The notes under the pieces are model-generated. The model did not search any database. It was not told the DNA's origin and worked only from the letters and a program-made list of their open reading frames with translations. A stretch of 47,388 nucleotides of DNA. Source: an uncultured Chlorobiaceae bacterium (GTDB lineage Bacteria; Bacteroidota; Chlorobiia; Chlorobiales; Chlorobiaceae). The position numbers were made by a program, and so were the translations under genes. Positions 4,428-8,136 of this stretch are shown here, in pieces (the first letter of the stretch is position 1; each line of letters begins with the position of its first letter). The stretch is taken from positions 1 to 47,388 of the forward strand of contig CAIXLG010000128.1 in assembly GCA_903920215.1 (NCBI GenBank). Direction: 5' to 3'.

Positions 4428-6131
4428 ATGTCAAACGCCGCAATGAGAGCTAAACCCTGGATCAGCCATTATGACAAAGGGGTTCCCCATTCGCTTCAGC
4501 CATACCCGGAGCAGACATTAGTCGATGTAGTCCGAAAGAGTGCTGAAGAGTGTCCGAAGAATACCATTATGTTTTTCAAGGGCGCATCGCTCTCATATGG
4601 AGAATTTGAACAGCAAAGCAATGCTCTCGCAGCGGCTCTTGTAGCAATCGGTATCGGCAAAGGTGACCGCGTAGCCTTGATTATGCCCAACTCTCCCCAG
4701 ATGGTGATCAGCGAGTTCGGCACCTGGAAAGCCGGAGCTATTGCTGTTCCCATGAATCCGCTGTATACCATCAATGAGTTTGAGCATGCACTCAATGAGT
4801 GCGGTGCCGAAACCGCAATTGTCTTGACTCCCTTTTATGAGAAAATCAAGAGCGTTCAGCCTGATTCACGCTTGAAAAGGGTGATTGCCACTAATATCAA
4901 GGAGTATCTTTCGCCGCTCAACACCCTTCTTTTTACTGTTTTAAAAGAAAAAAAGGATGGTCACAGGGTAACATTGAAGCATGGAGATGTCTGGTTGTGC
5001 GATATTATCAGGGCTCATTCCGGGGTTACATTCTCGCCGGTGATCATCAAACATGATGACCCTGCGATTTTTCTTTTTTCAGGCGGTACAACAGGGAACC
5101 CAAAATGTGTTGTTATTTCGCATCAGGGGCTCGTCATTACAGGAATGCAGATTGCCAGCTGGTTCGGCGTTATTCTCGAAAAAGGAAAAGATGTCATTCT
5201 TCTTAACATGCCGCTCTTTCATGTCTATGCACAGGTTGGTATTATGACTGCGGCCCTGATTGAGCGATACCCTCTTGGCATGGTTCCGAACCCCCGTGAT
5301 ATTGATGATCTGCTGCATACCATCAAAACCCTCAAGCCATCGGTATTGCCGGGTGTTCCGACCCTCTTTACAGCATTGATCAATCATCCGAAAGTCAAGC
5401 GGAACAGCTCAATCCTTAAGTCGCTGAAGCTCAGTGTATCGGGTGCGGCTCCCCTCATGCTTGAAAACAAGAGACGTTTTGAAGAACTTACCGGAGGGAG
5501 GATTATTGATGCATACAGTCTTACCGAATCAGCTCTTGCATCGGTTTTTACTCCGATTTTAGGGACATATAAGCATGGATCGGTAGGTATACCTGTTCCG
5601 GATGTTGAGGTTCGCATTGTTGAGCAGGAGGATGGTTTTGAGATTCTTGCAGCTCTTGAAGTAGGGGAAATCATTATGCGAGCCCCCCAGATGATGAAAG
5701 AGTACTGGCAGAACCCGATGGAAACAGCTCTTGTTCTTCGTGATGGCTGGCTCTATACCGGCGATCTTGGCTATCTTGATGAGGACGGTTATCTCTTTAT
5801 TGTTGATCGTAAAAAGGATGTTATCAAACCCGGTGGCTTCCAGGTATGGCCACGTGATGTAGAAGAGGTCATAGCGTATCATCCTGCCGTGTTTGAAGTT
5901 GGCGTTGCCGGTGTGCCTGATGACTATCAGGGGGAAGCTGTAAAGGCATGGGTCGTTTTGCGCGAAGGCCATCATCTCTCTGTGGAAGAGCTTCGGGAGC
6001 ACTGCCGCAAAGACCTTGCCGCCTATAAAATCCCGAAACATGTTGAATTCACAGCCGCTCTTCCAAAATCAACAATAGGTAAAGTGCTTCGCCGCAAACT
6101 TGTCGAAGCGCATTGCGAAGCCGTGGGATGA
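4428..6131 (+). CDS. long-chain fatty acid--CoA ligase (AMP-forming)
   Basis: AMP-binding motif FLFSGGTTGNPKCVVISHQG, YSLTESALASVF, GWLYTGDLGYLDEDGYLFIVDRKKDVIKPGG. Confidence 0.9.
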   Translation: MSNAAMRAKPWISHYDKGVPHSLQPYPEQTLVDVVRKSAEECPKNTIMFFKGASLSYGEFEQQSNALAAALVAIGIGKGDRVALIMPNSPQMVISEFGTWKAGAIAVPMNPLYTINEFEHALNECGAETAIVLTPFYEKIKSVQPDSRLKRVIATNIKEYLSPLNTLLFTVLKEKKDGHRVTLKHGDVWLCDIIRAHSGVTFSPVIIKHDDPAIFLFSGGTTGNPKCVVISHQGLVITGMQIASWFGVILEKGKDVILLNMPLFHVYAQVGIMTAALIERYPLGMVPNPRDIDDLLHTIKTLKPSVLPGVPTLFTALINHPKVKRNSSILKSLKLSVSGAAPLMLENKRRFEELTGGRIIDAYSLTESALASVFTPILGTYKHGSVGIPVPDVEVRIVEQEDGFEILAALEVGEIIMRAPQMMKEYWQNPMETALVLRDGWLYTGDLGYLDEDGYLFIVDRKKDVIKPGGFQVWPRDVEEVIAYHPAVFEVGVAGVPDDYQGEAVKAWVVLREGHHLSVEELREHCRKDLAAYKIPKHVEFTAALPKSTIGKVLRRKLVEAHCEAVG

Positions 6132-6175
6132 TTATTATACTGTATTTACACTTTTCTTTGTTATCTTGAGGTAAG

Positions 6176-6272
6176 GGACAAAAAGGACTTCAGGGACAGC
6201 AGGGACTTTACCATCCTTGCGGGTATTTATTTTTTTGCTGCGAGTCCTTTAAGACCCTTTGGTCTTTTGTCC
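6176..6272. repeat. Imperfect inverted repeat with 9-nt-phased GGAC arm (possible RNA/DNA hairpin)
   Basis: GGAC at 6176, 6185, 6194 and 6203 (exact 9-nt spacing); opposite arm GTCC 6244, GACC 6253, GTCT 6262, GTCC 6269; outer pairing GGACAAAA (6176-6183) with TTTTGTCC (6265-6272), inner GGACT (6203-6207) with AGTCC (6243-6247). Confidence 0.75.
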
Positions 6273-6310
6273 AGTAATCTGCTTTAATTGCTTCAGTTCC
6301 GGGGAGGTTT

Positions 6311-6883
6311 ATGGTGGCCGATGGTTTTATTCTTGTTCACGGAGGCTACAAAAACTTACTCTCTTACAAAAAGGCGCAGATTATTTATGATGCTACGGTT
6401 TATTTTACCAGGCGTTTTTTCAGAAAAGGCGACCGCACGGTAGATCAGATGGTTCAGGCTGCGCGATCAGGGAAGCAGAATATTATTGAGGGGAGTATGG
6501 CCTCGGGGACTTCAAAAGAAACGGAGGTCAAGCTTACCAATGTTGCGCGAGCCAGTCTTGAGGAGCTTATGGAAGATTACCGTGATTTTTTGAGAGTTAA
6601 TGCTTTTCATGAATGGCCAGTTGAACATCCTTATGTAAAGCGTTTGCGCCAGATTAATCGAGCTACAGTTGCGGATTATGAAGCTTTTCGGAAAGGCATT
6701 GAGCATGAAAATCCTGAAATTTGTGCCAATGTGATTCTCGGCCTGATCAGAGTGTGCAGTTATCTTCTGGAACGGCAGCTTTATCGCCTTGAACAGGAGT
6801 TTATTGAGCATGGAGGCCTTCGTGAGCGAATGATCCAAGCACGCCTGCACCATCGGGGAAAAGGACCTTCCACGATCTTATGA
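6311..6883 (+). CDS. four-helix-bundle 'suffix' domain protein (23S rRNA IVS/S23-like family)
   Basis: FILVHGGYKNLLSYKKAQIIYDATVYFTRRFFRKGDRTVDQMVQAARSGKQNIIEGSMASGTSKETEVKLTNVARASLEELMEDYRDFL pattern; RBS-like GGGGAGG upstream. Confidence 0.82.
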   Translation: MVADGFILVHGGYKNLLSYKKAQIIYDATVYFTRRFFRKGDRTVDQMVQAARSGKQNIIEGSMASGTSKETEVKLTNVARASLEELMEDYRDFLRVNAFHEWPVEHPYVKRLRQINRATVADYEAFRKGIEHENPEICANVILGLIRVCSYLLERQLYRLEQEFIEHGGLRERMIQARLHHRGKGPSTIL

Positions 6884-8136
6884 CTTTCGAAGAACTGCAG
6901 AGACTCTGTGACCCGGAGGTTCAATTGCTGATTGAACTTCACAAATCTGACGATCCGGACGTTTTTGCCATGCGCTTTCATGGACATAAGGAGCTGCCGG
7001 TGAGGGCGATAGCTGAACAGCTTGCCTGCAGCCAGAAAGCCGCTAAAAAATTACCTCATCTTTCACAGTACAACCTGTTGTACACTCCGCTGGCGCTTGA
7101 GCAGGCTTCGGGAAAGCGTACGGCGGAATACAAGAGCTCTCTTTTATCGGGGAAAAGGGTGATTGATTTAAGCGGCGGGGTGGGGGTTGACTCGATGTTT
7201 TTGTCAAGGGTATTTCAGGAGGTGGTATACTGCGAGCGAGATTTATTGCTTTGTGCATTGTTTCAGCATAATTTGAAGCAGTGCGGCATTTCCAATGTGC
7301 AGGTTCAACATTGTGACAGCATTGACTTGCTTTCCTCTTATCCTGATGATTATTTTGACTGGATCTTTGTCGATCCGGCACGTCGTGAAGAGGGCAGGCG
7401 TTCAATAGCGCTTGGCTCGGCGAGTCCGGATGTTGTGGCTTCTCATGATATGATGCTCTGTAAGGTGACACGGGTATGCATTAAGGCATCTCCGGCTCTT
7501 GAGATAAGCGGTCTGAAAAAGCTGTTGCCTGCTTTGCACACAATTATGGTGGTTTCGGTAGATCGTGAATGCAAGGAGATTCTGTTGCTGCTTGATCGGG
7601 AAGCTATCGAGAAACCGGTAACGGTCAAGGCCGTTTGTCTCTCTTCGGATTCGGAGTGTGTGACTGAAATTTTTGGAGATGGTGTGGTTGAGCGGCCTCT
7701 TGCCTCTTCAGTGAGGGAGTATATTTATGAGCCTGATCCGGCTATTATCAAGGCGAAACTTTCGGATGTGCTTGCCAGAGGTTCAAGGCTTGAGTTTGTC
7801 AATAAAAGTGTTGATTATCTCACCTCTGACCGTAAAATAGAGGCTTTTCCCGGCAGGACATTTCGAGTGATTGAGGGTGTTCCTTACAAGCCGAAGAGTT
7901 TCAGGTCTTTTCTGAATCATCATGCTATTACAGGCGCAAGCATCCAGCGACGCGACTTTCCGCTTTCACCGGGAGAGCTGAGAAAGAAGTTTGGGCTCCT
8001 TGAAAGTGAGAGGGTCTTTCTCTTTTTTTCTCGTGACAGGGAGGGGCATCCCATCTGTATTTATGCTCTCAGATGCTTCTCTGAAGACGAAGCAGCTCTT
8101 TCTGGGCAAGACCGAAGCGCAGGCCCTGAATGCTGA
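6880..8136 (+). CDS. class I SAM-dependent methyltransferase with THUMP-like C-terminal domain
   Basis: VIDLSGGVGVDSMFLSRVF (SAM motif I), DYFDWIFVDPARRE (DPAR motif); C-terminal SPGELRKKFGLLE...FLFFSRD; ATGA overlap with the preceding gene. Confidence 0.8.
   Translation: MTFEELQRLCDPEVQLLIELHKSDDPDVFAMRFHGHKELPVRAIAEQLACSQKAAKKLPHLSQYNLLYTPLALEQASGKRTAEYKSSLLSGKRVIDLSGGVGVDSMFLSRVFQEVVYCERDLLLCALFQHNLKQCGISNVQVQHCDSIDLLSSYPDDYFDWIFVDPARREEGRRSIALGSASPDVVASHDMMLCKVTRVCIKASPALEISGLKKLLPALHTIMVVSVDRECKEILLLLDREAIEKPVTVKAVCLSSDSECVTEIFGDGVVERPLASSVREYIYEPDPAIIKAKLSDVLARGSRLEFVNKSVDYLTSDRKIEAFPGRTFRVIEGVPYKPKSFRSFLNHHAITGASIQRRDFPLSPGELRKKFGLLESERVFLFFSRDREGHPICIYALRCFSEDEAALSGQDRSAGPEC

Follow-up and report, generated by a model that had tools for sequence, protein, structure and literature searches.

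The window, that is, the whole 47,388-nucleotide stretch of Chlorobiaceae DNA that was analysed, carries a four-helix-bundle gene with a suffix domain (positions 6311 to 6883, forward strand). It lies between an acyl-CoA ligase gene resembling fadD (4428 to 6131, forward strand) and a THUMP-like methyltransferase gene (6880 to 8136, forward strand), the start of which overlaps its stop. Both neighbours lie outside an element of approximate extent, 6132 to 6867 on the forward strand, delimited by its absence from three related genomes (G073, G033 and G071) and with ends that are not base-exact. The encoded protein of 190 amino acids, the proposed cognate protein of the repeats described below, matches TIGR04258 at 69.7 bits (cut-off 40) and TIGR02436, the model of the N-terminal bundle, at 26.5 bits (cut-off 24); it thus shows both marks of a TIGR04258 suffix protein, a score above the curated cut-off and an N-terminal TIGR02436 bundle. 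A sequence-only reading of this DNA had placed the gene in the four-helix-bundle family, and these scores bear it out, with the similarity to the intervening-sequence (IVS) proteins being distant: the score against Pfam PF05635, the IVS-protein model, falls under its cut-off. Profile searches of the protein matched four-helix-bundle models alone, with no nuclease or transposase domain, and the defence and phage family libraries gave no match. A single-sequence AlphaFold model was unusable (pLDDT 45), and a search of solved structures by sequence had two results, 2GSC at E = 0.36 and an unrelated chain. 2GSC is a distant relative from Xanthomonas campestris that was solved with five chains.

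Upstream of the gene, a forward phased array (6176 to 6206, forward strand) presents four GGAC cores at exactly 6176, 6185, 6194 and 6203, a 9-nt phase with the core A[AG]GGAC of what is called clade A here. It is followed by a degenerate inverted arm (6244 to 6272, reverse strand) in which GTCC (6244), GACC (6253) and GTCT (6262) keep the 9-nt phase and a further GTCC stands at 6269. The outer 8 bp of the inverted repeat are GGACAAAA/TTTTGTCC, and the second arm holds a hairpin of its own, AAGACC-CTTT-GGTCTT. The phased cores and complementary arm, the outer pairing and the inner hairpin had all been pointed out beforehand, and all are present at these positions. The window has two instances of three GGACs in phase, both within the 6176-6206 array, against an expectation of 0.01 from dinucleotide shuffles, and four in phase were not seen once in 60 simulated windows. 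These shuffle and simulation statistics contradict an origin by chance or codon-driven periodicity, as does the association with homologues described below, where the signal is at lag 9 and not at lag 6, 12 or 15. Such an origin could draw on the 3-nt multiples of coding DNA and on the count of the bare GGAC 9-nt pattern in the whole genome from which the window comes (G000), where its 6 matches equal the 6 of the reversed pattern. That count carries no information, since its control is contaminated: the reversed pattern, CAGG at 9-nt spacing, is found in such arrays too. The informative test of association is array enrichment across homologous loci, and a chance origin is barely credible.

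As RNA, the array region folds with ordinary stability (z = -1.28, with 20 of 200 shuffles equally stable), and a search of it against Rfam matched no family; a known RNA or riboswitch was rejected on these two grounds. The earlier suggestion of a 23S rRNA IVS also found no support. Distant similarity to the 23S-rRNA intervening-sequence proteins, and thereby to Avd (PMC10053308), would speak for an IVS-like insertion or for an accessory locus of a diversity-generating retroelement. The location and the neighbours contradict both: the site is the gap between fadD and the methyltransferase gene, no rRNA was found in the window, the Rfam search was negative and none of the 12 neighbouring proteins scanned is a reverse transcriptase. 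Either origin is very improbable.

Genes of the TIGR04258 type were found in 40 of 86 genomes of the family and in 40 of 298 Bacteroidota genomes (a sample enriched for Chlorobiaceae). A single family genome can have as many as nine matched stretches, several of them truncated or with stop codons. Intact copies are under purifying selection, as indicated by dN/dS values of 0.05-0.21 across twelve homologue pairs. A phage search for homologues gave no match; an IMG/VR contig (IMGVR_UViG_3300014039_000053, L288) encodes a relative with 44% identity, and GTCGGAC-type repeats of mixed 9- and 10-nt spacing lie ahead of it. The enrichment of arrays beside homologues had been set beforehand as the test that could refute a link between array and gene, and it did not: lag-9 arrays were found in the flanks of 33 of 67 homologous loci, as opposed to 3 of 67 control segments. 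The score was the best 27-position self-match within 250 nt of the gene, with a threshold of 18, controls being segments 650 nt further out, and the loci were chosen by similarity score rather than randomly, many of the genomes being drafts. At every lag other than 9, no more than 4 of the 67 loci reach the threshold. Arrays usually have three to four units and are oriented forward upstream and inverted downstream of the gene; some loci have additional forward-inverted modules, either to one side of the gene or to both.

The paired arms have the core in common and mostly not the three spacer bases, so conservation tracks the motif and not RNA pairing. Another possible role is one in which the protein would bind the array as RNA or DNA and control its own operon, with dispersed arrays as its regulon. 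TRAP, a ring-shaped protein, binds evenly spaced (G/U)AG repeats in leaders, and the array in the 5' region of the gene, its even spacing and a ring-shaped relative all recall TRAP leaders. Such autoregulation is nevertheless quite unlikely, given arrays inverted on both sides of the gene, between convergent genes and inside coding sequence, their presence or absence between close relatives and the unexceptional RNA fold. An RNA hairpin or autoregulatory leader as the main role, as had been proposed earlier, is likewise not supported, with RNA stability being ordinary, spacers unshared between arms, and arrays lying also downstream, dispersed without a gene and in frame inside some gene copies. 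The sequence-only reading, with its view of the 5' flank, had covered one part of a system that extends to the 3' flank in most relatives, to solo copies and to a heptad version.

The core differs from one protein clade to another. Besides A[AG]GGAC in the window clade, the cores are TGGGAC, TAGGAC (ATAGGAC/TAAGAC), GTGGAC, ATGGAC and TCNGAC (GATCNGAC), and one protein branch has a CACNGAC core (CACNGACNNN or GATGGACNNN) at 10-nt spacing. When label changes were counted on a single protein tree, core type required 7 changes, where the minimum for 7 states is 6, against 15-19 in 200 shuffles. A topoisomerase-type zinc ribbon, which suggests DNA binding, forms the C-terminus of the proteins in the GATCNGAC clade, and their genes contain in-frame 9-nt arrays of their own core inside the coding sequence. 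In this zinc-ribbon clade (L032-L035, L107, L113 and L127) the in-frame units encode a DRSDQSD/LTD-rich linker from the bundle to the suffix domain. In Prevotella nigrescens (NZ_CP082843.1, L137), a TAGGAANNN-like array of 9-nt units, the core of which is without GAC, lies downstream of a suffix-domain gene.

Arrays without a gene are scattered genome-wide, mostly as single arrays and in some cases as inverted pairs, and these solo arrays are far commoner than the genes. The GTGGAC pattern gave 56 matches in G001, 53 in G008, 52 in G015 and 37 in G009, against none for the reversed pattern in these four genomes, and the TGGGAC pattern gave up to 22, in G021; matches overlap within one array, so these counts exceed the number of sites. 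Within the three genera tested, array type and the matching gene clade co-occur (p = 0.0007, 0.00025 and 0.02, from gene-clade lists compiled by hand from fetched loci). GTGGAC arrays are also cross-associated with clades A and B, and three genomes (G003, G013 and G014) hold many arrays and no matching intact gene. An array list combined with GC skew revealed no replication-strand bias of arrays in G001.

Occupied and empty sites can be compared between relatives, as had been proposed for defining the element. In G073, G033 and G071, fadD and the methyltransferase gene are separated by about 37 nt that contain no array and no gene, so that element-free versions of the window locus exist, from which the ends can be placed approximately. 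In G010 and G017 the element is oriented opposite to the neighbouring methyltransferase gene. At an orthologous site elsewhere, about 126 nt with arrays in G001 have no counterpart in G002, G004, G016 or G020; gain and loss cannot be told apart from presence or absence alone, and here the element-free state, being common to several genomes, favours gain in G001. In other intergenic slots the array type differs between genomes. Inverted arrays are terminal in many copies, and five aligned sites gave no clear target-site duplication. There is strong support overall for array and gene being parts of a single genetic element: the arrays accompany homologues, match their clade and lie in inverted orientation to either side of the gene, and some sites are free of the element. 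The 3' end of the window gene (6856 to 6883) differs from that in the sister genome G061: G000 lacks the downstream inverted array of G061 and the gene's stop overlaps the methyltransferase start, which would fit a loss of the element's right end.

In the main rival explanation the arrays would be landing sites: a small gene cassette would insert into, or recombine between, phased repeats already in place, which would themselves spread by slippage, template switching or the action of some other enzyme, and the protein would not be the mover. Solo arrays far outnumber genes, the protein is without a catalytic domain and long uniform arrays exist, all as this rival would have it. Changes by a 9-nt unit resemble slippage as well; in aligned upstream sequences (L007/L008), the inverted arm of G061 is one such unit longer than that of G000. 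A passive site does not predict that core and period should track the protein clade, and cores are kept while spacers vary. Lag-9 arrays are also rare in random intergenic DNA (3 per 400 kb of G001), yet the genes nearly always have one. Landing sites are an unlikely explanation.

Relatives without the suffix domain served as a negative control in the lag-9 test. Their TIGR02436 genes gave no lag-9 signal and had lag-7 arrays instead, found at 29 of 30 Chlorobiaceae loci as opposed to 2 of 30 distant segments. Across the phylum the count was 11 of the 30 best-scoring TIGR02436 loci against 3 of 30 controls, and on named plasmids from seven phyla it was 15 of 18 against 0 of 18. The heptad arrays enclose the gene in inverted orientation, as in Nostoc flagelliforme, with AATTCGT units on the 5' side and ACGAATT units on the 3' side. 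The genome of the window has a second four-helix-bundle gene (L309, G000:C98:221-532), which is suffix-less and flanked by heptad GGCAGTT arrays. Several other suffix-less genes (among them L375, L383, L370 and L379) that have heptads or similar arrays occupy operon gaps, such as cas10/cmr3, hsdS/hsdR and sufA-like/sufB in a suf cluster, or lie between cas2 and cas1. Possible 8-nt units were seen by two four-helix-bundle genes, one on a Gemmatirosa plasmid (L382, 24 of 27 at lag 8) and the other L383 (23 of 27 at lag 16).

The reading preferred here, with a probability of roughly 0.55, is that array and gene in the window are one copy of a mobile repeat system in two parts, which resembles REPIN/RAYT and in which a four-helix-bundle protein takes the place of the transposase. 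The first part would be a short tandem array, usually of three to four units, with a core in fixed phase (9 nt here) and in opposite orientations at either end of the element; the second would be the suffix protein, encoded between or beside the arrays. Core and spacing would be specific to each protein subfamily, which would read them probably as DNA and probably as a multimer whose protomers contact successive units. The protein may cause the copying or insertion of arrays and array pairs into intergenic sites, a spread analogous to that of REPINs, which is thought to be brought about by the RAYT protein. This reading draws on the enrichment beside homologues, the agreement of core with clade, the inverted flanks, the dispersed copies, presence and absence between relatives and the co-occurrence of gene and array, and further on the dN/dS values, the zinc ribbon in one clade, the heptads across seven phyla and the five-chain 2GSC. 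Against it stand the lack of a nuclease or transposase domain, of a clear target duplication and of strand bias in G001, as well as the three genomes having arrays without a matching intact gene and the cross-association of GTGGAC arrays with clades A and B. Should the protein be the mover of the arrays, the system would be a mobile element with no recognised nuclease; should the protein only bind them, it would still be a new sequence-periodic binder of nucleic acid, in which motif and spacing vary naturally.

REPIN/RAYT systems (see PMC3116915 and PMC8266576) have short inverted repeats flanking a gene of single or low copy number, many intergenic copies without a gene, and a repeat type that tracks the protein family. 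The window system is alike in its inverted pairs around a gene, its dispersed gene-less copies and its repeat types by protein family. It differs in having phased units of 7-10 nt where REPIN/RAYT has a GTAG-tagged palindrome, and a four-helix bundle in place of a protein with an HUH or Y1 transposase domain; lacking that domain and the REP palindrome, it is REPIN/RAYT-like without being a member. It differs from a classical insertion sequence or MITE, for which a known transposase would be expected, in that no transposase model matches the protein. With TRAP it shares short, evenly spaced motifs beside a gene and a ring-shaped relative, and it is set apart by inverted copies on both sides, by solo copies throughout the genome and by the absence of evidence for RNA binding. 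The broad four-helix-bundle family is common to the window protein, the S23/IVP proteins and Avd, the pentamer of diversity-generating retroelements that is linked through the 23S-rRNA IVS protein family (PMC10053308); both 2GSC and Avd are pentameric relatives. Unlike S23/IVP elements, the window locus lies outside rRNA and its protein carries the TIGR04258 suffix domain, and unlike diversity-generating retroelements it has no template or variable repeat and no adjacent reverse transcriptase.

The heptads beside TIGR02436 genes match in anatomy the heptamer arrays long known from cyanobacteria, Beggiatoaceae, Xanthomonas and Bacteroidetes, for which "no mechanism is evident" (PMC4679880; see also PMC4692102). 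The STRR, TAACTGA and Xanthomonas GGGAATC repeats are intergenic, often of about four units, found as convergent pairs without strand preference and altered by 7-nt indels (PMC4679880, PMC4692102); those of Xanthomonas mostly have four units, form 70 convergent pairs in Xcc and show no replication-strand preference (PMC4679880/PMC4692102). A text search of these two papers found no mention of the four-helix-bundle protein family and no cognate gene named. In a search of open-access literature, which takes in few subscription journals, no paper with TIGR04258 turned up; as judged on that literature, what is new is the pairing of gene and phased array as a system, with the repeats and the protein family each being known separately. 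The 9-nt units of the window array distinguish it from STRR-type heptamers, and it is the heptads beside TIGR02436 genes that look to be of their kind. The chances are about even that S23/IVP-type genes with phased arrays make up a widespread mobile class without a known transposase, in which the subfamily sets core and period (7, 8, 9 or 10 nt) and which is the source of the STRR, TAACTGA and Xanthomonas heptamers. A protein family that sits between the arrays, with its subfamily setting unit length and core, would offer these heptamer repeats a candidate cause and a testable function.
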